DNA of 64,000 nucleotides from Diaphorobacter limosus (lineage in GTDB: Bacteria > Pseudomonadota > Gammaproteobacteria > Burkholderiales > Burkholderiaceae_C): assembly GCF_033100095.1 (NCBI RefSeq), contig NZ_CP136921.1, positions 3,251,001-3,315,000 on the forward strand, in the 5' to 3' direction. Every line of letters begins with the position of its first letter. Within the stretch, counting starts at the first letter, position 1. The notes under the pieces were generated by a model, which was given only the letters and a program-made list of their open reading frames with translations, did not search any database and was not told the DNA's origin. Both the position numbers and the translations under genes were made by a program. Below are positions 1 to 11,717 of the stretch, piece after piece.

Positions 1-1
1 C

Positions 2-289
2 CCTGCCTGCGCCGAGTCCATTTTGGATGATGCCGAATCCCGGCGTGTGATGCGCGAGATGCGCGTCTTTTCCAAACAGATCAACGCAGCCATCGTCGAT
101 CCGGCTTTCATCGTGGACGTGCGCAAGAAGCTCGACCTGGACCAGCGTGAAGCGGCCGAAATTTTTGGCGGCGGCGTCAATGCCTTCTCGCGCTACGAGA
201 CTGGCAAGACCAAACCGCCCCTGGCCTTGGTCAAATTGTTCAGGCTGCTGGATCGCCACCCAGACCTGCTGAGCGAAGTCCGATCCTGA
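2..289 (+). CDS. mqsA: MqsA-type antitoxin, C-terminal part (cut by window edge)
   Basis: Antitoxin of a MqsRA-type type II toxin-antitoxin system. In the known family the C-terminal helix-turn-helix binds the operon promoter and the N-terminal zinc domain binds the MqsR toxin. The frame is open to the left edge, so the zinc domain and any mqsR lie outside the window. A TTG at 23 could be read as a start, but upstream codons continue the family match (a CAESI segment like the end of the MqsA zinc domain), so this is a truncated view of a longer gene. The visible HTH contains VRKKLDLDQREAAEIFGGG followed by NAFSRYETGK and ends with HPDLLSEVR, closely matching E. coli MqsA as I remember it. About 95 codons are visible. 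Confidence 0.88.
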   Translation, partial: PACAESILDDAESRRVMREMRVFSKQINAAIVDPAFIVDVRKKLDLDQREAAEIFGGGVNAFSRYETGKTKPPLALVKLFRLLDRHPDLLSEVRS

Positions 290-293
290 GACG

Positions 294-446
294 GTGGAGC
301 CCTCCAGCTTCGTCGCCTTCAAGCATTGGCTGGCGGCCCAGGCGCCCCACCGCACCGCACCCAAACGCCGCCGCGATCAGCGACAAGCCGAAATCGTGCA
401 GGCCCTGCTCGATGAAAAAATGCTGTTTGCCAAGGACGATGGTTGA
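294..446 (+). CDS. Small ORF downstream of mqsA, unknown
   Basis: A 50-codon frame beginning with GTG four bases after the mqsA stop and ending TGA at 446. The product is basic in the middle (a KRRRDQRQ run) and ends in a helix-like segment with LLDEKMLF. The tight spacing suggests translational coupling to mqsA, but I recognise no family and there is no ATG. It could equally be a decayed remnant of a larger gene. Low confidence. Confidence 0.3.
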   Translation: MEPSSFVAFKHWLAAQAPHRTAPKRRRDQRQAEIVQALLDEKMLFAKDDG

Positions 447-641
447 TGACTTGTCAACGCTCTGCCAAAGAGCCAAGGAGTTGCGAAAAGCAAGCGTGCC
501 GAGCCGAGGGATAACCCGGAAAACCAGGCGGAAAAAATTGCTTACACTCGGGCGACCGTGCGCTTGCCGGGAGGGCTGCGCACCAGCATTGCAAAAAACA
601 ACAAGGCCATGCCGAACTTTTACGCCAATTGCAACCTAACT

Positions 642-685
642 GCCGAGCCGAGCCGAGCCGAGCCGAGCCGAGCCGAGCCGAGCCG
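642..685 (+). repeat. Pentanucleotide tandem repeat (GCCGA)n
   Basis: About 8.8 perfect copies of GCCGA in the gene-free stretch 447-792, just before the terminator and the retroelement. Pentamer arrays are prone to copy-number change by slippage. It is not inside a recognised gene here, so any effect would be on transcription or RNA structure. Apart from this array and the hairpin at 721, I see nothing in 447-792. Confidence 0.9.
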
Positions 686-720
686 CTTTAGCGCCTCTTT
701 TTCTCCATTCGCCTTTTGAA

Positions 721-754
721 GCGCCGTCCAGGCCTGCCTGGACGGCGCTTTTTT
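721..754 (+). terminator. Rho-independent terminator upstream of the DGR
   Basis: A perfect 12-bp GC-rich stem (721-732 with 737-748), a four-base loop and a run of six T. It ends transcription coming from the mqsA side and insulates the retroelement. It lies only 38 bases before the first target start, so it could instead act as a leader attenuator if a promoter sits upstream of it. Confidence 0.85.
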
Positions 755-792
755 GCGTCTTGTTTTCTGACACCCACCCAAGGACACTTGGC

Positions 793-1593
793 ATGATCTC
801 TACCGCAACTCCAGACTTTCGCCCTCTCGCGCTCCTGCCTTGGCTGGCCCTGGCCCTGTGCTCCGCCCCCGCCACGCAGGCGCAAACCCGCCCCCTGAAC
901 GACACCGGCATCACCTGGAGCGGCCACGCCACCAGTGGCAACGCCACCACCTGCGACAGCGGCCACCCCGCCGGGCAAGACTGCCACTACGGGCGTGATA
1001 AGGCCGCAGCCGATGGTGCGCTGACTAAAGTGGGCGCCAGCACCCCGAACAACGGCGTGGCCAATGGTTTTGACTACACCAAGATCGCCAACAACGGCAG
1101 CGTGCTGCCCGCCAATGCCGCCTTGGGCAGCAGCCCCGGCGACTGGGCCTGCACCCGCGACAACGTCACCGGCCTGATCTGGGAGGTCAAGACCACCAGC
1201 GGCCTGCGCAGCCAAGCCCACACCTATTCTTGGTACATGACGGGCAGCCCCGATGGCAACGCCGGAACCGCCAGCGGTGGCACTTGCGAGACCGAAGGCC
1301 GCTGCGACACCGAAAAATACGTGGCCGACGTGAACGCCACCAACCTGTGCGGCCACACCGACTGGCGCATGCCCACCGTCAAGGAGCTCGAAGGCATTGC
1401 CGACCTGGGGCGTAGCAACCCGGCCATCGACCCCACTTATTTCCCGAATACACCGTCTTCGTACGTCTGGTCGGGTTCGCCCAATGCCGGTTATTCGAGC
1501 TACGCGTGGAACGTGAATTTCGGCTATGGCAACGCCAACGACGGCCTCCGCAGCAGCAGCAGCCGCGTTCGCTTGGTGCGCGCGGGACAGTGA
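793..1593 (+). CDS. DGR target protein 1, secreted Lcl/DUF1566-like protein with C-terminal variable region
   Basis: A 266-residue exported protein. The ATG at 793 was chosen over an in-frame codon at 760 because it has AAGGA about 9 bases upstream and begins a signal peptide (charged start, hydrophobic LALLPWLALALCS, cleavage after ATQA). The C-terminal half has the Lcl/DUF1566 pattern (CGHTDWRMPTVKEL), a C-type-lectin-like fold commonly diversified by DGRs. The last about 45 residues are the variable repeat (VWSGSPN to VRLVRAGQ). Its Ser, Tyr, Gly, Leu, Asp and Arg residues lie exactly where the template encodes Asn, Asp or His. It is the first gene of the retroelement, 24 bases before avd. 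The likely role is an exported or surface ligand-binding protein; the ligand is unknown. Confidence 0.93.
   Translation: MISTATPDFRPLALLPWLALALCSAPATQAQTRPLNDTGITWSGHATSGNATTCDSGHPAGQDCHYGRDKAAADGALTKVGASTPNNGVANGFDYTKIANNGSVLPANAALGSSPGDWACTRDNVTGLIWEVKTTSGLRSQAHTYSWYMTGSPDGNAGTASGGTCETEGRCDTEKYVADVNATNLCGHTDWRMPTVKELEGIADLGRSNPAIDPTYFPNTPSSYVWSGSPNAGYSSYAWNVNFGYGNANDGLRSSSSRVRLVRAGQ
1454..1587 (+). other. DGR variable repeat VR1
   Basis: This 134-bp segment at the 3' end of target 1 aligns without gaps to the template repeat at 2166-2299. By hand I count 18 differences, 17 of them at template adenines and one C-to-T. They change 14 codons, nearly all AAC/AAT in the template. The 3' end is an invariant GC-rich stretch (TTCGCTTGGTGCGCGCGGGA), followed by CAG in the VR and GAG in the TR. 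That is the expected position of the IMH/IMH* pair that sets direction of transfer. Confidence 0.95.
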
Positions 1594-1617
1594 TTTTGCT
1601 TTTTCCCCTGTCTGCCC

Positions 1618-2034
1618 ATGAACCACCCCAGTGCACGCGGCCCGCGCTACCGGCAATTGCCGCTGTGGCGCGACGCGCAGCGCCTGCTGCTGCAGGTGGA
1701 GCTGGCCGTGCGCGACTTTGCCCGCTACCACAAATACACCCTGGGCAGCGAGCTGCGCCAGCAGGCCATGGCCATTTGCCGTTTGGTGGCGCGTGCGGCC
1801 CAGCAGGGCGATGTGCAGCGCCGCGTGGTGGTGTTGGAGCGCCTGGTGTGGGGGCTGGAAGACTTCAAGATACGCCTGCAACTGGCCAAAGAGTTGCAGG
1901 CCTTTGCCTCATTCGCCCAGTTTCAAGCCTTGGCAGAACTTGCCGTGGCGCTGGGCAAACAGAGCGGGGGGTGGTGCAAAAAGGCGCGGTCCGTAGCGGC
2001 GCAGGCATCCCGCCAGGGAGCCGGCGCCGCGTGA
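1618..2034 (+). CDS. avd: DGR accessory variability determinant (Avd), four-helix bundle
   Basis: A 138-residue basic helical protein matching the Avd / 23S-rRNA-intervening four-helix-bundle family. Recognisable features are LPLWRDAQRLLLQVELAV, RYHKYTLGSELR and the KIRLQLAKEL helix. In studied DGRs, Avd forms a pentameric barrel, binds the reverse transcriptase and template RNA, and is required for adenine-specific cDNA synthesis. It lies between target 1 and the template repeat, the classical position. No strong Shine-Dalgarno is visible before the ATG. A short Ala/Gly-rich tail follows the last helix. Confidence 0.92.
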   Translation: MNHPSARGPRYRQLPLWRDAQRLLLQVELAVRDFARYHKYTLGSELRQQAMAICRLVARAAQQGDVQRRVVVLERLVWGLEDFKIRLQLAKELQAFASFAQFQALAELAVALGKQSGGWCKKARSVAAQASRQGAGAA

Positions 2035-2165
2035 ACCGACATCACTGTGCGCCCACCCCGCCGTGCCAAGGTAACGAACCCGTGCAGGGCAAGCCTTGGC
2101 CGGCATGGCAGCGTCCACCAGCCTACCTTGGGGATGGCCGGTGGGCAAACAAGTGGGTGGGTCAT

Positions 2166-2299
2166 CGTCTTCGAACGTCTGGTCGGGTTCGCCCAATGCC
2201 AACAATTCGAACAACGCGTGGAACGTGAATTTCAACAATGGCAACGCCAACAACGACAACCGCAGCAACAACAACCACGTTCGCTTGGTGCGCGCGGGA
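2166..2299 (+). other. DGR template repeat (TR)
   Basis: A 134-bp non-coding template between avd and the reverse transcriptase. It holds 38 adenines, most of them in AAC/AAT units, so its virtual translation is Asn-rich. It matches VR1 and VR2 base for base except at adenines (plus one other base each) and ends with the same GC-rich block, followed by GAG rather than CAG. It would be transcribed as the template RNA and reverse-transcribed with adenine infidelity. The stretch 2035-2165 shows no gene of its own and probably belongs to the template transcript. Confidence 0.96.
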
Positions 2300-2315
2300 G
2301 AGTGATGCGCATCCC

Positions 2316-3878
2316 GTGCCCACTGCATTGCCAGTTTTCGGCTTTGCCGCACTGCACCAGGCCTGGCAAGCCTGTCGGCGCGGCAAGCAGGGCACACGCA
2401 AGGCCCAGCGCTATGGTCTGCACTTGTTGGACAACCTGGTGCAGACCAGCGTCGCCTTGCAAACGCACGCCTGGCACCCATCCCCCGCAACCCGTTTCGT
2501 CACCCTGCACCCCAAGCCGCGTGAAATTCTGGCCGCCGACTTTGGCGACCGCGTGGTGCACCACCTGCTGGTGCCCTGGCTGGAGCGCCTGTATGAACCC
2601 GTGTTCATTGCAGACAGCTTTGCCAACCGCAAGGGCAAGGGCACGCACGCCGCCGTGCGGCGCCTGCAGGCGTTTGCCCGCAGCCAGCAGGCGCTGGCCA
2701 GTGGGCAGGGCGCGGGGCATTACCTGCAGCTCGATATTGCCAACTTCTTCAACAGCATCCAGCGCCGCACCTTGTTCGGCTTGTTGCAAGCCCGCGTGCA
2801 GCGCGACCTGCGCCGCCCGACTTCGCACGCCCGCCACTGCCCGCCGGATGAGGCCGCGCACATGCTCTGGCTGGCCCGCCAACTGCTCACCGGCAACCCG
2901 GCACTGGGCGCACGCTACCAGGGCCGGGTGCAAGACCTGCTGCGCGTGCCAGCGCACAAGCAGCTCATCCACGCCGCGCCCGAAATCGGCCTGCCCATAG
3001 GCAACCTCACCAGCCAGTTCTTTGCCAACGTCTATCTCAACGAGTTGGACCAGTTCATCAAGCACCAGCTCAAGGTGCGCCACTATGTGCGCTATGTGGA
3101 TGATTTTGTGCTGCTGCACCACTGCCCGCAGCAACTGGCGCAGTGGCGCAGCGCCATCACGGCCTTCTTGCACCAGCGCCTGGGCCTGGCCCTGCGCGAC
3201 GCCGGGCGGCTGGCCCCGGTGGCCAATGGCATCGACTTTCTGGGCTACATCGTGCGCCCGCATTACCTGCTGGTGCGCCGCCGCGTGCTGGGCCATCTGC
3301 ATGGCAAGCTTGCGCAAATCCGCCAGCACTGGCAGCGCGGCGATGGCAGCCTGCACTGCACGGCGCAGCAGGCCGACCAGTTGCACGCCATGCTGGCGTC
3401 GTACTGGGGCCATATACGACATGCGCACAGCCACCGCACACGCGCCCAGGTGCTGGCCCGCCACCCCTGGCTGGCGCACTGGCTGCGGCAACGCCCCGAC
3501 GGCGCCTTGCAGCGCGTGGATGGCCCCGCCCAGGCCCCCACGCTGGCACGCCAGTGGCGCTGGTTTGCCCGCCGCTACCCTGGCCATGCCCTGTTGGTGC
3601 AGGTAGGCAGCCGGTGGGAGTGCAGCGCCCTGGCGGGCTTGCCGCCCAGCACCCGCCGCCCCGGCCTGCCACCCACCCACAGCCTGCACCCGCGTGATCT
3701 GCCCGCGCTGCAGCGCCGCCTGAGCGCCGCTGGCCAGCCCTGGCTGGCGGTGGCTGAAGCCGGCCACCAGCACAGCGGCCGCAAGCGCCGCCAGTTGTGC
3801 GCCATCGGGCCTGCCAGCGCCCTTGCAGGCACGCATCCCCTCACATCCACCCCCTGCACTCCAGGAGCCATGTCATGA
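2316..3878 (+). CDS. DGR reverse transcriptase with long C-terminal extension
   Basis: RNA-directed DNA polymerase that copies the template RNA with adenine-specific errors. Motifs, numbered from 2316: LQLDIANFFNSI with the first catalytic Asp near residue 140; LPIGNLTSQFFAN near 226-238, the DGR hallmark where retrons and group II introns have QG; and YVDD at 260-263 within RYVDDFVLLH. The length is about 520 residues, longer than a minimal DGR RT. The C-terminal part has RYPGHALLVQVG near 419-430, resembling the start of a MutS domain I. The start is uncertain: the frame is open into the TR (ATG at 2238), but GTG 2316 or TTG 2328 leave the TR untranslated and fit family N-termini better. 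The stop overlaps the start of target 2 by four bases. Confidence 0.93.
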   Translation: MPTALPVFGFAALHQAWQACRRGKQGTRKAQRYGLHLLDNLVQTSVALQTHAWHPSPATRFVTLHPKPREILAADFGDRVVHHLLVPWLERLYEPVFIADSFANRKGKGTHAAVRRLQAFARSQQALASGQGAGHYLQLDIANFFNSIQRRTLFGLLQARVQRDLRRPTSHARHCPPDEAAHMLWLARQLLTGNPALGARYQGRVQDLLRVPAHKQLIHAAPEIGLPIGNLTSQFFANVYLNELDQFIKHQLKVRHYVRYVDDFVLLHHCPQQLAQWRSAITAFLHQRLGLALRDAGRLAPVANGIDFLGYIVRPHYLLVRRRVLGHLHGKLAQIRQHWQRGDGSLHCTAQQADQLHAMLASYWGHIRHAHSHRTRAQVLARHPWLAHWLRQRPDGALQRVDGPAQAPTLARQWRWFARRYPGHALLVQVGSRWECSALAGLPPSTRRPGLPPTHSLHPRDLPALQRRLSAAGQPWLAVAEAGHQHSGRKRRQLCAIGPASALAGTHPLTSTPCTPGAMS

Positions 3879-5266
3879 AATTTCCACCCCTGCTTGCCCT
3901 GTCCCTGGGTCTGTCCGCAGGCGCAGCCCAGGCCGTGACCTGCCAGGACAACATCCCGGCCAGCAACCCCGACAGCGCCTACACCGTGCATGGCGACCAA
4001 ACCGTCACCGACCCCCGCACCGGCCTGATGTGGAAGCAATGCCTGGAGGGGCAAAGCTGGAGCGGCAGCGCCTGCACCGGGACGGTCACGCCCATGAACT
4101 GGGTCACGGCCCTGAGCACGGCTGAAGCGGCCAGCTTTGCCGGTCACAGCGATTGGCGCCTGCCCAACCTGAAGGAGCTGCGCAGCCTGGTGGAGGAATG
4201 CCGCACCGTACCCAGCATCAACGACACGGTTTTCCCGGGAACGCCGTCTTCGGACGTCTGGTCGGGTTCGCCCAATGCCAACGGTTCGAACAGCGCGTGG
4301 TACGTGGATTTCAACGATGGCTACGCCAACAGCTTCAACCGCAGCTACAGCTTCCTCGTTCGCTTGGTGCGCGCGGGACAGTCTTTGGCCCCTTTGCCGG
4401 CGCTGAGCGCCGTGGCGCTTTCGGGCACGCCCACCGGCAACGGCGCGGCCTTTGTGGGTACCAGCGACAAGACCGGCACAGGTTACTGGCTGGTGGTGCC
4501 CAGCGGCAGCCAGGTGCCGACGTCCGCGCAGGTCAAGGCCGGGGTGGCCTACGGCGGCGTGACGCCTGCAGCCCACGGCAGCGGCGCGATGGCGGCGGGC
4601 ACGCCCGCCAGCTTTGCCGCCAGCGGCCTGAGCGCGGCGACCGGCTATGACTTTTATCTGGTGGCCGAGGCTGCGGGGCAGTTGAGCGCGCCCGTGCAGC
4701 GGGTGGCCTTTGCCACCGCCACCGCCGCCACCCTGCCGGAAGGGCCGCAGACAGGCCAGCCGATGCAGGTGGTGGCGCTGCCCTCGGCGGGTGGCTGGCA
4801 TCTGGATGCGGCCACCACGCAAACCCTGGCCAGCCTGGGCGCGCCCCTGCCGCCGGGCCTCGCCGCGCCGCAGGGCGTCGTGACTCTGAGCCTGAGCGGC
4901 GGCACGGCGGGCACGGCAGCCACCGTGGTGCTGACCTACCCGCAGCCCTTGCCTGCGGGTACGGTGTATTACAAGTACGGCAAGACCGCAGTCAATCCCA
5001 CCAACCACTGGTACTCGTTCAGCAGCGGCGCGGCCATCAGCGGCAACACCATCACGCTGACGCTGACCGATGGTGCCGATGGCGATGACGACTTGGCGGC
5101 CAACGGTTCCATCAGCGACCCCGGTGGCCCGGTGGTGCCCTTGGGTGCACCCATGGGGGCGGCGTCGATTCCCACACTCTCCGAATGGGCGCTGTGGCTG
5201 CTTTCGGCCTTGACCGGCCTGCTGGCGCTCGCCTGGCTGCGCGGGCGCAAGGCTGCTGGCGCCTGA
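3875..5266 (+). CDS. DGR target protein 2: DUF1566-like domain, choice-of-anchor-U-like domain, IPTL-CTERM tail
   Basis: A 463-residue exported protein. The ATG at 3875 overlaps the RT stop and has AGGAG at 3863-3867. Domain order: a signal peptide cut after AQA (near residue 20); an Lcl/DUF1566 C-type-lectin-like domain (TGLMWKQC, GHSDWRLPNLKELRSL) ending in VR2 at about residues 124-168; a Gly/Ser/Thr/Ala-rich stretch; a choice-of-anchor-U-like domain (GTVYYKYGK, ITLTLTDGADGDDDL, DPGGP); then IPTLSEW, a hydrophobic helix and the basic end RGRKAAGA. IPTL-CTERM tails are known sorting signals read by an exosortase-type enzyme, which is not in this window. The variable region is therefore internal, with an anchoring module behind it. 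That suits surface display of diversified binders. Confidence 0.93.
   Translation: MKFPPLLALSLGLSAGAAQAVTCQDNIPASNPDSAYTVHGDQTVTDPRTGLMWKQCLEGQSWSGSACTGTVTPMNWVTALSTAEAASFAGHSDWRLPNLKELRSLVEECRTVPSINDTVFPGTPSSDVWSGSPNANGSNSAWYVDFNDGYANSFNRSYSFLVRLVRAGQSLAPLPALSAVALSGTPTGNGAAFVGTSDKTGTGYWLVVPSGSQVPTSAQVKAGVAYGGVTPAAHGSGAMAAGTPASFAASGLSAATGYDFYLVAEAAGQLSAPVQRVAFATATAATLPEGPQTGQPMQVVALPSAGGWHLDAATTQTLASLGAPLPPGLAAPQGVVTLSLSGGTAGTAATVVLTYPQPLPAGTVYYKYGKTAVNPTNHWYSFSSGAAISGNTITLTLTDGADGDDDLAANGSISDPGGPVVPLGAPMGAASIPTLSEWALWLLSALTGLLALAWLRGRKAAGA
4245..4378 (+). other. DGR variable repeat VR2
   Basis: A 134-bp copy of the template inside target 2, gap-free against the TR. By hand there are 16 differences, 15 at template adenines and one G-to-T. 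They change 13 codons. It ends with the same GC block followed by CAG, as in VR1. A small hairpin (CGGCGC, TGA, GCGCCG; 4398-4412) lies 20 bases downstream. Some DGRs need a hairpin near this point, but this one may be chance in GC-rich DNA. Confidence 0.94.
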
Positions 5267-5339
5267 GCCGCGAAGGTCTTTGCACAGTGATTGCGCGTGG
5301 CGTGTTCTCGCTGATTTCAGCATGGAGTAGACTGAAATC

Positions 5340-5579
5340 ATGGAAAACGTTGAAAACTTGATCCTCGAACACCTGAAACGGTTTCAGGCCGGGCAAGACC
5401 GCATCGAGCACAAACTGGATGAAGTCATCGCCAGGGTCGGGCATATCGAGCTGGGCCTGGCAGGCGTGCGCCGGGACCTGGCCCATGCTGACGAGGGATC
5501 GGCCAGCACGGGCGTTCGCGTGGATCGCTTGGCAGAGCGCATCGAACGGATAGAACGGCGCCTTGAAATCGAAGGCTGA
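5340..5579 (+). CDS. Small coiled-coil protein, unknown
   Basis: A 79-residue acidic/basic helical protein with heptad-like spacing throughout (LILEHLKRFQAG, IEHKLDEVIARVGHIELGL, then VDRLAERIERIERRLEIEG). No signal peptide or catalytic motif is visible. It lies 73 bases after target 2 and is followed at once by a terminator, so it could be the last gene of the retroelement transcript or an independent small gene. Proteins of this look are common in mobile regions and mostly uncharacterised. I assign no function. Confidence 0.65.
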   Translation: MENVENLILEHLKRFQAGQDRIEHKLDEVIARVGHIELGLAGVRRDLAHADEGSASTGVRVDRLAERIERIERRLEIEG

Positions 5580-5589
5580 ACGACCCGCA

Positions 5590-5613
5590 AAAAACCGCCG
5601 CAAGGCGGTTTTT
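5590..5613 (+). terminator. Rho-independent terminator after the coiled-coil gene
   Basis: Ten-base arms AAAAACCGCC / GGCGGTTTTT with a GCAA tetraloop, directly after the stop at 5579. It closes the transcript running from the DGR side and works in both directions by its symmetry. Confidence 0.88.
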
Positions 5614-5726
5614 CATTGGGTCTCAGCGCACCGGCACGCTGAAGTAGCGCTCGGGCCAGGGCTCGTTCATCAGCGTGGCATGGCGTGATGAACCTGAAGC
5701 TCATCGACGCGCCGTGGGTACCGGTG

Positions 5727-6070
5727 CCATCGTGGTGCTGACTTGTCTCCAGCTCCTGCCCGCGGGCACGGTGTATTACAAGTACGGCAAGATGGCGGGC
5801 AACCCCACGGCGCATTGGTATCCGTTCGCTGGTGCGACCATCAGCGGCAGCACCATCACGTTGACGCTCACCGACGGTGCCGATGGCGACGACGATTTGC
5901 AGCAGAACAGCGCCATCACCGATCCGGGTGGCCCGGTGATGCCCATGGGCGTACCCGTGGGGGCGGCGTCGATTCCCACGCTGTCCGAATGGGCGCTGCT
6001 GCTGCTCTCGACCTTGACCGGCCTGTTCGCGCTCGCCTGGCTGCGCGGGCGCAAGGTTGCTGGTGCCTGA
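5727..6070 (+). pseudogene. Truncated duplicate of the target 2 C-terminus (anchor-U-like domain + IPTL-CTERM)
   Basis: This stretch repeats 4920-5266 with scattered changes. It keeps LPAGTVYYKYGK, ITLTLTDGADGDDDL, DPGGP and the IPTLSEWALLLLS tail with RGRKVAGA. It has no signal peptide, lectin-like domain or variable repeat, and no proper start. The in-frame codons just upstream come from unrelated DNA (the junction is near 5727). It is most likely the 3' end of a former paralogous target gene. If recombined with target 2 it could exchange tails. Confidence 0.85.
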
Positions 6071-6515
6071 GGGCCGGGCGCCTTCGCGGCATAAGAGCTG
6101 TGAACGCGCCCTCATGGTAATAGCTGGCGGCGCTTTCCCATCAAGCGTTTGTCGGTGATTTGCATTGAAAATTCATGGGTATCTGTCCATCAGCGCGCCC
6201 TTGGTCGGGGCAGCCGCTCACTGCGGTTTTTCCTTCGGCAGTAGACTAGGAGCGTGGGCGTTTCACCAAGGGATCATGATGGTCAGTCTCATGGAAGAAC
6301 TCAGTTCGCAAGCTCGAACGCTGTACGGATAGGAAATTCAACCGCATGAGGCCAAGTATGGCGCGAGTTTTGGGCCTCGAAACACGTTCGGCCAAGGAAG
6401 GTTGAGCGCTCGCTTGCCGCTCAATGGCAAGAGCTTGGGAGGCAGTATGCATTTGGGCCTGGCGCGCGCGCAGCTGCTTCCCCGCAGCGATGGATACCGC
6501 CGCTTCACTGGGTCA
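6071..6515. other. Stretch without a recognisable gene
   Basis: Between the duplicate tail and the transposase I see no convincing gene. It holds one copy of a small dispersed repeat at about 6118-6151 (TAATAGCTGGCGGCGCT, then TCAAGCGTTTG) and a few short open frames without ribosome-binding sites. The right-hand part probably contains one terminus of the IS91-type element, which I could not place. Confidence 0.5.
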
Positions 6516-8059
6516 CTAATTGACGCGCTGGTCTACCTCGTCGGGTTGAGCTGCCAGATCCCAATCCGGCTCGCCTTGCGCACCATCATCCACCGGCGCG
6601 TCGCAGCCCTCCCACAGCGGTGGCCCGCGTGCCGGGGTGATGTGCGGGGGGGCAGACTCCACCCCGATGTGGTTCAGGATGTGGCGGATTTCGGCGCTGT
6701 GGGTGATGAAGGCAATGATGCGCATCTGCCCACCGCACATGGGGCACAGCAGTGGAAATGCCTCGTAGATGCGGGCAATCAGCACCGCCCACAAGTAATG
6801 CGCCGCTCGCTTCGGGCGTGCTTCAGGTTCGGGTGTGGGTGTGGCCGCGTTGCCCGGCGCCGCCACCCCAGGTACGCCCGCGCCAGGTTGTGCAGTCTCC
6901 ACCGTGGCTGGTTGCGACGCAGCAGGCTGAGCCAGCGCCGTTACCGCCGCTCTCAGCGGCGAGTTTGGTGCCAGCACACCAAAGTAGCGGTGCCGGTGGG
7001 TGCGTGGCGGTGGCACCAGCGCGGCGATGCGGTCGATCAGTTCCAGCGGTGTGAGGTGCAGCTCATCTGCCTTGCCACCACGCTTGTCACTGGTGGGCTC
7101 GCTGCGCTGTTTGGCACAGCGGTACACCAGTTTGCTTCCCTCTTTGCGTAGGCGCTCCATGGAAAACGGTGGACGCGCGCAATAGCGCAGCAGCCGCTCC
7201 AGCGCAGCGCGGTCGTGGGCTTCGATGCAGACACCGGCGTCCACCGAGAAGCCGCTGTGTTTGTAGCCCAGCATGTCTTTGGCGTCACAGTTCTCCAGCA
7301 GGCCCCGAGCAACGAAGGCGCGCAGGATGCGTTTTTGCAGGGTGGTCTGCACTGGGGCCACGGTAGCCGCATCGATGCCGGTGGCCGCGTGAAAGATGAC
7401 ACCCGGCGATGAGATTCGAGGGGTCGCATCAGCATCGCCCTCGCCCTCCACTTCCTCAAACACCCCGTCCACCACACAGACGTGGAAGTGGACGTGTTCG
7501 TTCAGGCTGGAGCCGAACCTGTGAATGAAGGCCACTGCGCCGATGTGCAGGTTCGCCTTGTCTGCATTGGCCGCGCCAGGGCAATGGGCTTGCAGGCTTT
7601 GTGCAATGACACGCAGGAAGATGCGCAGCACCATATTGAGCGTGGCACTGTCGCGCTGCATGTAGTACCGCAGCCGTTTGGGCACGGAGAGCACCCACTG
7701 GCGCACCGGCAGGCGGGGAAGACGTGGTCGCTCAGGTGTGCCGCCGTCTCCACCATGCGCCGTGTGGTGCACGAGGGGCAGACACCACGGCCTTTGCAGG
7801 AAAAAGCCACGAAGTAGTTGTGCCCGCAGTCGCCGCAGCGAGCGCGGGCAAAGCCATGGGCAAAGATGCCGCACTCCAGATATTTTGCAAACGCCTTGCA
7901 CACATAGGGCTTGGGTGTGTGGTGATCGCCCTGGCCGTCGAACTGACCCGCGCTGGCCAACTCTAGCCAGGTCTCGTAGTGCTCGGCTACCGTTTGGTAC
8001 AGCAGCGTGCGTTCGGGGTGGCGCGGGCTGTAGAGCTTGGGGTTTGCAGTGGTTTGCAT
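6516..8059 (-). pseudogene. IS91-family transposase, frameshifted
   Basis: A Y2-type rolling-circle transposase split over two frames. The N-terminal part starts at 8059 (MQTTANPKLYSP) and carries a Cys-rich zinc ribbon (CGIFAHGFARARCGDCG, then GVCPSC). It stays in frame to about 7722. The rest, from LPVRQWVLSVPKRLRYY to the stop at 6516, continues one frame over. The join fits loss of one base near 7718-7724. The downstream part keeps HRFGSSLNEHVHFHVCVVDG and a late CPMCGG pair typical of the family. Without recoding it would not make an intact protein; a sequencing error is the other explanation. Element termini were not found. Confidence 0.85.
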
Positions 8060-8062
8060 GAA

Positions 8063-8082
8063 TACTGTACAAATGCACAGTA
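8063..8082. promoter_or_regulatory. LexA-box-like palindrome at the transposase start
   Basis: TACTGTACAAATGCACAGTA contains CTGT, eight bases, then ACAG, the spacing of the LexA operator, flanked by symmetric TA. With the outer bases it reads AATACTGT / ACAGTATT (8061-8068 / 8077-8084). It lies three bases upstream of the likely transposase ATG, a position where a repressor would block expression. No other SOS gene is nearby. Confidence 0.55.
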
Positions 8083-8112
8083 TTCTGCGGCGATTGCTTG
8101 GGCACGCAAAGC

Positions 8113-8146
8113 ACAAGGCCCGAACCGTTGCCGGTTCGGGCCTTGT
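8113..8146. terminator. Stem-loop behind the lpdA remnant
   Basis: A perfect 15-bp stem (8113-8127 with 8132-8146) and a four-base loop. On the minus strand it follows the stop of the lpdA fragment by about 22 bases, so it is probably that gene's old terminator. The U-tract is poor. Confidence 0.65.
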
Positions 8147-8167
8147 CTGGGTAGCTTGAAGGCGGGT

Positions 8168-8293
8168 CTATTTGCGCGCAGGCGGCACATCGGTACAGCT
8201 GCCATGCGCCACCTCTGCGGCCATGCCGATGCTCTCACCCAGCGTGGGGTGCGGGTGGATGGTCTTGCCGATGTCCACCGCATCAGCTCCCAT
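8168..8293 (-). pseudogene. lpdA: 3' fragment of dihydrolipoamide dehydrogenase
   Basis: Read on the minus strand, this gives the last about 41 codons of an E3 dihydrolipoamide dehydrogenase. It contains [18 protein letters not shown], then [18 protein letters not shown] and a stop at 8168-8170. The His-Pro-His-Pro segment is the conserved C-terminal active-site region of the family. The gene breaks off at about 8293, where unrelated plus-strand coding sequence begins. It cannot be functional and marks a rearrangement breakpoint. Confidence 0.8.
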
Positions 8294-8414
8294 CTATCTT
8301 GTCTGGAACGAAATCCCGGTGGTGCTGGGCAATCTGGTGGGTGGCCTGGCCTTCACCGGCCTGACGCTCTACACCACGCATGCGCGTACCGCGCCGCAGC
8401 GGGCGCTGGGCTGA
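8291..8414 (+). pseudogene. 3' fragment of a formate/nitrite transporter (FNT family)
   Basis: About 40 codons in frame to a TGA at 8412. They encode a hydrophobic segment with LVWNEIPVVLGNLVGG and TLYTTHARTAPQRALG. The N-x-(I)PVxLGNxxGG pattern is the last membrane helix of FocA/NirC-type channels. Everything upstream is missing and the fragment abuts the lpdA remnant head to head. It is non-functional. Confidence 0.7.
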
Positions 8415-8518
8415 GCCGCTGGAGGAAAGGCCGGGGGGAAGGCCAGCGCTGTTGCAGCGCCTAAAATGACCGGTTCGCGTGCGCCCGGCCGCACGCCCTT
8501 ACCGAATCGCCCCCAGCC

Positions 8519-9457
8519 ATGCTCACCTTCCAACAAATCATCCTCAAACTGCAAACCTACTGGGCCGACCAGGGTTGCGCGCTTTTGCAGCCCTACGACA
8601 TGGAAGTCGGCGCCGGTACGTCGCATACAGCTACTTTTTTAAGAGCATTGGGGCCAGAGCCCTGGAAAGCCGCCTACGTGCAGCCCAGCCGCCGGCCCAA
8701 GGACGGGCGCTATGGCGACAACCCCAATCGCTTGCAGCACTATTACCAGTACCAGGTGGTGCTTAAGCCCGCGCCGGCCAACATCCTGGAGCTGTACCTG
8801 GGCTCGCTCGAAGCGCTGGGCTTTGACCTGAAGAAGAACGACATCCGCTTCGTCGAGGACGACTGGGAGAACCCCACGCTGGGCGCCTGGGGCCTGGGCT
8901 GGGAGGTGTGGTTGAACGGCATGGAGGTGACGCAGTTCACCTATTTCCAGCAGGTCGCCGGCATCGACTGCAAGCCCGCCACGGGCGAGATCACCTACGG
9001 CCTGGAGCGCCTGGCCATGTACCTGCAGGGCGTGGACAACGTCTACAACCTGACCTGGACGGATGGCCTGACCTATGGCGACGTCTACCACCAGAACGAG
9101 GTCGAGCAGTCCACCTACAACTTCGAGCATTCGGATGCCGAGTTTTTGTTCACCGCCTTTGGCGCGCATGAAAAGCAGGCCCAGCATTTGATGGGCGAGC
9201 AGCTGGCGCTGCCGGCCTACGAGCAGGTGCTTAAGGCCGCGCACACCTTCAATCTGCTGGATGCACGCGGTGCGATCAGCGTTACCGAGCGCGCCGCCTA
9301 CATTGGCCGCATCCGCAACCTGGCGCGCGCCGTGGGCAAGAGTTACCTGGACAGCCGCGCGCGCCTGGGTTTCCCCATGGCGCCCAAGGCGCATGCCGAT
9401 GAGGTGCTGGCGGAGCTGGCCAAGGCGGCCGAGCAGCAGCAGAAAAAAGCGGCTTGA
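8519..9457 (+). CDS. glyQ: Glycyl-tRNA synthetase alpha subunit
   Basis: Catalytic subunit of the bacterial (alpha2beta2) glycyl-tRNA synthetase, charging tRNA-Gly in the cytoplasm. The 312-residue length is typical. The start [15 protein letters not shown], the class II motif region with [14 protein letters not shown], and [20 protein letters not shown] and [15 protein letters not shown] are all standard for the family. It is followed by glyS after 139 bases that hold a palindromic repeat element, so the two genes are probably still one transcript. Confidence 0.98.
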
Positions 9458-9469
9458 GGAGCAACCACA

Positions 9470-9579
9470 CTCCCTCTCCCCCTTGGGGGAGAGGGCAGGG
9501 GTGAGGGGGTGCCAGGGCCCAGCGCCCAGCCCGAGCCCACCCTCACCCCCACCCTCTCCCGCCAGCGGGAGAGGGAGTC
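9470..9579. repeat. REP/BIME-like element, family A, two-hairpin form (glyQ-glyS spacer)
   Basis: Two inverted hairpins of the type CCCTCTCCC…GGGAGAGGG, joined by AGGGGTGAGGG and its complement CCCTCACCCC. It fills the glyQ-glyS spacer. Six further copies or half copies occur in this window (15079, 20158, 34304, 48766, 51455 and 54471), always between genes. In transcripts such paired hairpins may act on mRNA stability. Confidence 0.9.
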
Positions 9580-9596
9580 AGACAAGATCACACACC

Positions 9597-11717
9597 ATGA
9601 CCCATTCAAACCTTCTTGTTGAACTCTTCGTCGAAGAACTGCCTCCGAAGGCCCTGCAAAAGCTCGGCGACGCCTTTGCCGGCGTGCTGCGCGAGCAGCT
9701 TGCCACCCAGGGCCTGTGCGCGGCCGACGCGCCGCTCACCGCCTACGCCTCGCCGCGCCGCCTGGCCGCGCATATCGGCAACGTGCTGCACCAGGCGCCC
9801 GACAAGGCCGTGTCGCAAAAGCTCATGCCCGTGGCCGTGGGTCTGGGCAGCGATGGCTTGCCCACACCGGCGCTGCTCAAGAAACTGGCCGCGCTGGGCG
9901 CCGACGCCTCGGTCGTGGCGGGTCTCAAGCGCGTGCATGACGGTAAGGCCGAGCTGCTGTTCTACGAGAGCCAGGCACGCGGCGCCACGCTGGCCCAGGG
10001 CCTGCAAAAAGCGCTGGACGAAGCCATTGCTAGGCTGCCCATTCCCAAGGTCATGCGCTACCAGCTGCAGGACGGCTGGAGCAGCGTGAACTTCGTGCGC
10101 CCCGCCCATGGCCTGGTGGCGCTGCACGGCAGCGCCGTGGTGCCGGTGACGGTGCTCGGCCTGGCGGTGGGCAACAGCACGCATGGCCACCGCTTCGAGG
10201 CGGCCGTGGACCCGGTGGTGATCCACGATGCCGACAGCTACGCCGCGCAGCTCGCCGAGCAGGGCGCGGTGATCGCCAGCTTTGCCGAGCGCCGCGCCGA
10301 GATCGCGCGCCAGCTGCAGGCGGCGGCCGACAAGATTGGCGGCGGTGTGCGCCCCATAGCGGACGATGCGCTGCTCGATGAGGTGACAGCCCTGGTCGAG
10401 CGCCCCAACGTGCTGGTCTGCCAGTTCGAGACGGAATTCCTCGCCGTGCCGCAGGAATGCCTGATCCTGACCATGAAGGCCAACCAGAAGTACTTTCCGC
10501 TGCTGGACGCCTCGGACAAGCTCACGCACCAGTTTCTCATCGTCAGCAACATCCGGCCGCAGGACGCCAGCGCCGTCATCCAGGGCAACGAGCGCGTGGT
10601 GCGCCCGCGCCTGGCCGACGCCAAGTTCTTCTTCGACCAGGACCGCAAAAAGACCCTGCAAAGCCGCGTCGCGCAGCTGGCCAAGGTGGTCTACCACAAC
10701 CAGCTGGGCACCCAGGGCGAGCGCGTGGAGCGCGTCAGGGCCATCGCCCGGGCGATTGCCGCGCGGCTCGGCGGGGCCCAGCTGGCGCAGCAGGCCGACC
10801 AGGCGGCGCTGCTGGCCAAGACCGACCTGGTCACCGACATGGTGGGCGAGTTCCCCGAGCTGCAGGGCACCATGGGCCGCTACTACGCCCTGAACGACGG
10901 CCTGGACGCGGCGGTGGCCGACGCCATCGAAGACCATTACAAGCCGCGCTTTGCCGGCGATGCGCTGCCGCGCGGCACGGCCGGCGTGGTCGTGGCCCTG
11001 GCCGACAAGCTGGAGACCCTGGTCGGCATGTTCGGCATAGGCAACCTGCCCACCGGCGACCGCGACCCCTTCGCGCTGCGCCGCCACGCGCTGGGCGTGA
11101 TCCGCATGCTGGTCGAGAAGGACTTGCCGCTGGATCTGATCCAACTGGTGGCGCTGGCTCAGGACAAGTTTGGCGACAAACTGAGTGGCGTCGATGCCAT
11201 TCAAGGATCGTTGCAGCTTGTTGACTTTATCTACGACCGCCTGGCCGGCTCCCTGCGCGAGCAGGGCTACAGCGCCCAGGAGGTGGACGCCGTGCTGGCC
11301 CTGCGCCCGCAGCGCCTGGCCCTGGTGCAAAAGCAGCTGGCGGCGGTGCGCGCCTTCTCCGCGCTGCCCGAGGCCCCGGCCCTGGCGGCGGCCAACAAGC
11401 GCATCACCAACATCCTGAAGAAGGCCGAGGCGGTGGATGCCCATGTCAACCCCGAGTTGCTGCAGGAGCAGGCCGAGCAGGATCTGTACGCGGCCCTGCA
11501 GCGCTTCGTGCCCGAGGCCGACGCGCAGTTTGCCGCCGGCGATTACACCGCCAGCCTGCAGACCCTGGCCGTGCTGCGCGCGCCGGTGGATGCCTTCTTC
11601 GATGACGTGATGGTGAATGCCGAGCAGCTGGATCTGCGCCTGAATCGCCAGGGGCTGCTCAAGAGCCTGCACGACGCCATGAACCGCGTCGCCGACCTCT
11701 CGCGCCTGGCCGCCTGA
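9597..11717 (+). CDS. glyS: Glycyl-tRNA synthetase beta subunit
   Basis: The tRNA-binding partner of GlyQ, 706 residues, the usual size. The ATG at 9597 begins MTHSNLLVELFVEELPPKAL, the standard family N-terminus. The frame is open further upstream through the repeat element, but that part has no family match. Internal landmarks are ASPRRLAAHI, MRYQLQDGWSSVNFVRPAHG, HGHRFE, ECLILTMKANQKYFPLLD and GDRDPFALRRHALG. The stop overlaps the start of the next membrane-protein gene. Confidence 0.97.
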   Translation: MTHSNLLVELFVEELPPKALQKLGDAFAGVLREQLATQGLCAADAPLTAYASPRRLAAHIGNVLHQAPDKAVSQKLMPVAVGLGSDGLPTPALLKKLAALGADASVVAGLKRVHDGKAELLFYESQARGATLAQGLQKALDEAIARLPIPKVMRYQLQDGWSSVNFVRPAHGLVALHGSAVVPVTVLGLAVGNSTHGHRFEAAVDPVVIHDADSYAAQLAEQGAVIASFAERRAEIARQLQAAADKIGGGVRPIADDALLDEVTALVERPNVLVCQFETEFLAVPQECLILTMKANQKYFPLLDASDKLTHQFLIVSNIRPQDASAVIQGNERVVRPRLADAKFFFDQDRKKTLQSRVAQLAKVVYHNQLGTQGERVERVRAIARAIAARLGGAQLAQQADQAALLAKTDLVTDMVGEFPELQGTMGRYYALNDGLDAAVADAIEDHYKPRFAGDALPRGTAGVVVALADKLETLVGMFGIGNLPTGDRDPFALRRHALGVIRMLVEKDLPLDLIQLVALAQDKFGDKLSGVDAIQGSLQLVDFIYDRLAGSLREQGYSAQEVDAVLALRPQRLALVQKQLAAVRAFSALPEAPALAAANKRITNILKKAEAVDAHVNPELLQEQAEQDLYAALQRFVPEADAQFAAGDYTASLQTLAVLRAPVDAFFDDVMVNAEQLDLRLNRQGLLKSLHDAMNRVADLSRLAA

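Follow-up and report, generated by a model that had tools for sequence, protein, structure and literature searches.

The analysed window, bases 3251001–3315000 of the 4.10-Mb single-contig genome of Diaphorobacter limosus (64 000 nucleotides; positions given are window coordinates), carries what is very probably a bacterial chromosomal diversity-generating retroelement (DGR), in which a reverse transcriptase (RT) and the accessory variability determinant (Avd) copy one template repeat (TR) and replace variable repeat 1 (VR1) in target gene 1 and VR2 in target gene 2. The cassette spans 793–5266, entirely on the + strand, in the order target 1, avd, TR, RT, target 2, and every element listed in a preliminary description of this DNA is present. 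The reading given there, that of a complete DGR in which a single template serves two targets, is supported by the class of the RT and by the adenine pattern of the repeats. What is observed directly comprises the parts, their homologies, the adenine bias and, in two relatives close to each other, natural variation in both targets. Beyond that earlier account, our analysis adds the recurrence of the cassette in relatives, a MutS domain I in the RT, a conserved element 3′ of the VRs and 3.7-kb repeats flanking the cassette.

Adenine-directed variation in the repeats

The TR (2166–2303), VR1 (1454–1591) and VR2 (4245–4382) form a single repeat family, found by a repeat search without adenine bias and placed also by a genome search with the TR and by alignment to it. 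The VRs had initially been described as 1454–1587 and 4245–4378; both starts stand, while each end lies four bases further. Of the mismatches to the TR, 17 of 19 in VR1 and 15 of 17 in VR2 fall at TR adenines (binomial p = 4e-8 and 4e-7, respectively, against a background of 39 A among 138 TR bases), and at no position in either VR does an A stand opposite a non-A in the TR. The non-adenine mismatches are one C/T and one G/C in VR1 and one G/T and one G/C in VR2, the G/C mismatch being identical in both. Altogether 25 of the 39 TR adenines are altered in at least one VR and seven in both. Codons are changed in VR1 and VR2, yet the frame is kept and no stops arise, and both VRs sit in-frame inside the Lcl_C domains of the target proteins. 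Membership of one repeat family would also be expected if VR1, TR and VR2 were ordinary gene duplicates that had drifted apart with no reverse transcription; however, the changes have a direction: TR adenines account for 32 of the 36 mismatches, none is in reverse, and relatives show the same pattern. This already refutes the duplicate explanation, to which we give practically no weight. Further VRs in the genome are ruled out, as a whole-genome search with the TR matches only the TR, VR1 and VR2. The same genome holds an additional Lcl_C gene (G000:C1:981546-981986), which is without similarity to the TR.

A scan of GTDB genomes yielded 29 related loci, 15 of which have the full layout of target 1, avd, TR, RT and target 2 with both VRs paired to the TR; the other 14 are cut by a contig end, have one part missing or are of a Xanthomonadales type. 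Across 49 TR/VR pairs, 773 of 870 mismatches lie at TR adenines and 29 have a VR adenine opposite a non-A in the TR. The window and 25 of the 29 loci supplied these pairs; no usable pair was obtained from L013, L029 or L032, and weaker places in L023 were left out. Because the segment search scored mismatches with A on either side mildly, the adenine share is favoured and the direction (773 versus 29) is the fair measure; the window's own repeat family was found without such scoring.

The most informative comparison is that of Paenacidovorax caeni (L005) with a Giesbergeria metagenome-assembled genome (L006), whose TRs are identical over 108 bases and whose sequences are 98.5% identical from the TR end through the RT. 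Their VR1 copies nevertheless differ at 16 sites, 15 of them at TR adenines, and their VR2 copies at 21 sites, all 21 at TR adenines. Such differences between VRs with identical TRs imply that in this subfamily both targets have been rewritten independently and on a short time scale. Among the six other genomes of the window's genus that were searched, the RT was found in none, apart from one weak match of 48 residues. In Halorhodospira abdelmalekii (L013:3453-3877), target 1 ends in a TR-like, Asn-rich repeat right before the RT and no avd was found, an arrangement that looks like the product of a deletion by VR1–TR recombination.

RT, Avd and the two target proteins

The RT (2316–3878, assuming a GTG start) contains the IGNLTSQ and YVDD motifs. 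Its best match in the PDB is the BPP-1 DGR RT (1.2e-36), followed by a group II intron protein (2.1e-10), and a fold search agrees with the profile and PDB matches; the possibility, named at the outset, that the RT might fall outside the DGR clade is thus not borne out. In-frame start candidates are ATG at 2238, within the TR, GTG at 2316 and TTG at 2328, which leaves the start uncertain. The RT frame is open back into the TR (2238–2304), and it enters the TR in several relatives too. The PADLOC hits of the RT come from 71 RT families of defence systems, which we take as general RT similarity. To see whether the cassette is borne by plasmids or phages, the RT was searched in both: 79 plasmid and 111 phage records contain a match, but in no case is 80% of the RT covered. 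Coverage is at most 73% among the matches listed (15 plasmid, 15 phage), so that the RT tail is not seen in those records. The avd gene (1618–2034) was identified by the PHROG profile 'Avd protein of DGR' (9.9e-17).

Target gene 1 (793–1593), seen in the open reading frame list and by profile, encodes an exported-looking protein with an Lcl_C (DUF1566) domain (E = 1.8e-32) and ends in VR1, as had been proposed. Target gene 2 (3875–5266), whose ATG overlaps the RT stop codon (ATGA, 3875–3878), encodes a likewise exported-looking protein in which an Lcl_C domain (1.1e-33) with the internal VR2 is followed by a choice-of-anchor U domain (4850–5137; NF041766, 3.1e-29) and an IPTL-CTERM sorting signal (5162–5248; TIGR04174, 29 bits versus a cut-off of 20.5). 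The sorting tail foreseen for target 2 is therefore present, and two exosortase genes of the XrtH type score over cut-off in the same genome. The earlier view that one template serves two structurally different proteins holds for the single template and its two targets; the proteins are not wholly different, as they share Lcl_C and differ outside it. The most likely use of the system is to diversify binding by two Lcl_C proteins that are either secreted or surface-located.

The contrast between a VR-terminal and an anchored target is recurring, not universal. Among 18 target 1 proteins from loci with a tail-bearing RT, 16 end 0–1 residues past the matched end and that of L024 ends two residues past it; eight of 20 target 2 proteins extend more than 100 residues beyond the matched end; of seven long target 2 proteins searched, two (L005 and L008) have IPTL-CTERM. 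In these counts L018 target 1 and L009, L014 and L018 target 2 lack a properly recovered frame, and L007 and L011 contribute no target 1. A fragment downstream of the cassette, at 5675–6070, resembles target 2: it matches the end of that gene at 83% and has an IPTL-CTERM signal and a choice-of-anchor U domain, but neither an Lcl_C domain nor a VR. It is perhaps the relic of a third target.

MutS domain I in the RT

By sequence profile and predicted fold, the C-terminus of the RT (3525–3833) is a MutS domain I, which extends beyond the point where the BPP-1 RT ends. Pfam MutS_I (PF01624) is matched at E 0.01 or better by eight of 64 RTs; hhalign of the RT tail profile against a MutS profile of 28/28 MutS gave 80% (77.9% with just four MutS), and the reverse profile search from RT tails recovered 26 of the 28 true MutS. 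The tail is confidently folded in the predicted structure; it was folded and searched alone, since the fold search with the full-length RT was uninformative on it. The domain was found in 21 of the 29 loci, and the RTs that carry it form one side of a well-supported branch covering Beta- and Gammaproteobacteria and Thermodesulfobacteriota (in a tree without L027, L028, L029, L031 and L032). On the other side of the balance, Pfam's MutS_I model is not matched by the RT of the window taken singly, no Foldseek hit of the tail falls below 0.001 (lowest E-value 4.5e-3), and the mismatch-reading residues of MutS are poorly kept. MutS reads mismatches by an F-x-E motif, the Phe of which wedges the mismatch; this Phe is found in 0 of the 64 RTs and the Glu in 39, the window RT having R-W-E. 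The absence of the wedging Phe from all 64 speaks against plain MutS-like reading of mismatches.

What the domain may do instead can be suggested only with low confidence: it might hold the mismatched duplex of cDNA and target, or keep host MutS off it. A real possibility, which we judge somewhat short of even, is that it is a relic, or serves the RT just as a structural cap, and plays no part in mismatch handling. This would agree with the loss of the Phe in 64 of 64 and retention of the Glu in just 39 of 64 RTs, and with the seven related Xanthomonadales-type RTs, which are without the domain and whose VRs are equally adenine-biased. A relic or cap is, however, harder to reconcile with retention of the domain throughout the branch just described and in those 21 loci, with its confident fold, and with the invariance of Gln 413 and Gly 431 across the 64 RTs.

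A linear element 3′ of the variable repeats

At the position of the IMH/IMH* difference, VR1 and VR2 both have C where the TR has G, and a shared change is found there in 15 of 16 loci (the script left L009 unresolved). Both VRs end in GGACAGT and the window TR in GGAGAGT, the TRs of relatives having mostly GGAGAGT or GGAGCGT. A conserved element, CAGT-N2-TTT-N5-TTT, stands on the 3′ side of each VR; counted from the C, its two TTT blocks are at +6 to +8 and +14 to +16. At VR1 it occupies 1588–1604 (+ strand), mostly past the stop codon, with six of six motif T, and at VR2 4379–4395 (+ strand), within coding sequence, with five of six. The mean number of motif T out of six is 5.38 for VR1 (n = 16) and 5.47 for VR2 (n = 17) versus 1.25 for the TR (n = 16), and the same T comb placed further downstream of VR1 scores 1.06–1.44; the Xanthomonadales type has a weaker element (mean 4.15 of 6, n = 13). 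The strict motif pattern occurs at 24 of 36 VR ends, at none of 20 TRs and at none of 13 Xanthomonadales-type VRs. For the means, the T positions were picked from the same, related sequences that were scored, and the mean T scores and the hairpin counts given below are without L006 (a near copy of L005), L024 and L032.

BPP-1 requires a hairpin close to the 3′ end of its VR (PMC3240598). Such a hairpin is needed in a subset of DGRs (PMC3521204), so that its absence does not exclude membership of the class. Our detector recovers the BPP-1 hairpin, with its 8-bp stem and GAAA loop. At the VR ends of tail-bearing relatives it found GC-rich stems of at least 7 bp in 0 of 33 and of at least 6 bp in one of 33, namely window VR2 (4398–4412, 6-bp stem, 3-nt loop); among Xanthomonadales-type VRs the corresponding counts are one and three of 13. 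Hairpins counted without the GC demand occur at one of 33 VR ends versus 25 of 1650 shuffles.

Since the element lies past the stop codon in target 1 and inside coding sequence in target 2 of the window, it may be read as a signal at the level of DNA or cDNA. As the T positions were drawn from the same, related sequences, its role as a target signal is a strong lead, not a proof. It is possible, though improbable in our view, that the element instead reflects ancestry or protein constraint and that the function of the BPP-1 hairpin is taken over by a more distant hairpin or one built differently. Such an explanation would draw on the non-independence of the related sequences, on the choice of motif positions after viewing the profile, and on the hairpin at window VR2 together with the stems of at least 6 bp in three of 13 Xanthomonadales-type VRs. 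Against it stand the position of the element after the stop in target 1, where it is as conserved as in target 2, the low scores of the downstream comb and of the TR flanks, and the lack of any GC-rich stem of at least 7 bp at the 33 VR ends with a detector that finds the BPP-1 hairpin.

Proposed mechanism and activity

In DGRs it is established that a TR transcript is copied by RT and Avd with errors at adenines and that the copy replaces the VR. In the present cassette, the TR would be transcribed and copied by the RT with Avd into cDNA with adenine errors, and this cDNA would replace VR1 of target 1 and VR2 of target 2. Both VRs could be served by one TR because they share the GGACAGT end and the T-rich element; we infer that the element directs priming to the vicinity of GGACAGT in each target, and that the MutS domain may hold the mismatched duplex. 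The 17 AAY codons in the TR would be the randomised sites, placed in the Lcl_C domains of two exported proteins, of which target 1 ends at its VR and target 2 would be held at the surface by exosortase H.

A tentative extension, more doubtful than not, joins two features in which this lineage would depart from BPP-1: a MutS domain captured and reshaped by the RT would bind the mismatched cDNA/VR heteroduplex or shield it from mismatch repair by the host, and the linear GGACAGT-N2-TTT-N5-TTT, recognised as DNA, would replace the hairpin. In that case the RT would have acquired domain I of MutS, which contacts DNA, with Arg in place of Phe in roughly half the family, and the element, standing in non-coding sequence in target 1 and coding sequence in target 2, would allow a terminal and an internal VR to be served alike.

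The cassette had been called intact in appearance, and at the level of its reading frames and signals this is borne out: all four frames are open and the catalytic and template parts are complete. Some observations weigh against a functioning DGR. The NCBIfam Avd (2.3e-7) and Pfam bAvd (4.3e-9) matches are both below curated cut-offs, a promoter scan found no sigma-70-like promoter in 1–6500, and a 15-bp perfect inverted repeat with a T-run, resembling an intrinsic terminator (719–750, + strand), stands 43 bases ahead of target 1; the pattern scanner reported five terminator-like sites versus 6.4 expected by chance. With the absence of the RT, save for the one weak match, from the six other genomes of the genus that were searched and the decayed C-terminal copy of target 2 downstream, the missing promoter and the terminator-like repeat could indicate that the DGR is silent or recently dead, that its VR differences are old and that no diversification occurs in this strain. 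We consider this unlikely, given the open frames, the complete parts and the VR codons that are changed but unstopped; moreover, hosts of this kind often use promoters other than the type scanned for.

Relation to known DGRs

The RT–MutS domain I fusion and the putative linear target element make the cassette a variant of the two-target DGR, a kind that is already known. The BPP-1 DGR (avd, brt, TR, mtd) belongs to a Bordetella phage, whereas the cassette described here is chromosomal, has two targets, carries the extra C-terminal MutS domain I on its RT and shows no GC-rich 8-bp hairpin of the BPP-1 kind. The DGR of Vibrio cholerae 1311-69 (PMC6642488) also has one TR and two VRs in two DUF1566/Lcl_C proteins; both of its VRs are C-terminal, unlike the internal VR2 followed by an anchor domain and sorting tail. 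In the phage DGRs nd4 and nd12 (PMC10743442) one TR likewise serves two targets of different topology, but one VR is near the 5′ end of its gene, and the excerpt of that paper makes no mention of MutS. MutS domain I is associated with DGRs in the accessory factor MSL (PF01624; PMC10053308), there described as accessory proteins and here fused to the RT. Finally, the Xanthomonadales-type DGRs (L019–L023, L025 and L026) share a related RT, a target 1-like gene, avd, the adenine bias and a weaker T-element, but have no MutS domain, and target 2 was found downstream of the RT in none of the seven (L019 has less than 0.4 kb of downstream sequence). Our literature search, in which Wu et al. 2018 (MSL) was outside the material covered, returned no paper describing a DGR RT with a fused MutS domain and none joining 'diversity-generating retroelement' with 'IPTL-CTERM'.

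Within a single stretch a DGR can introduce up to tens of mismatches, and the fusion makes the escape of DGRs from mismatch repair directly testable. In a study of a reconstituted BPP-1 DGR, mutS was deleted in one assay to preserve DGR substitutions (PMC12875486). The linear element, if it is a true target signal, would add to the hairpin a further mode of targeting, one that is easier to place in a new gene. As judged from its predicted domains, the cassette would also tie exosortase-sorted surface proteins to DGR diversification.

Chromosomal surroundings

Upstream of target 1, 8.8 copies of a GCCGA pentamer (642–685, + strand; TRF, 100% matches) precede the terminator-like repeat, and the repeats at 642–750 are possibly a length-variable leader or attenuator; phase variation through the pentamer is conceivable. 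An MqsA-type antitoxin gene lies directly upstream of the cassette (23–289; L043:9885-10289). The mqsRA–DGR stretch is situated between two copies of a 3.7-kb direct repeat, 99.6% identical, one at 6319–10026 and the other left of the window on the same chromosome (L043:4499-8204); recombination between them would delete the cassette and the MqsA gene. The repeat carries an IS91-like element (6319–8293, 94.8% to ISPps1 copies on plasmids), the whole of glyQ and the 5′ part of glyS. Five further genomes of the genus yielded glyQ, in each case as a single copy, and the duplication looks like a one-ended IS91 transposition that carried glyQ along.
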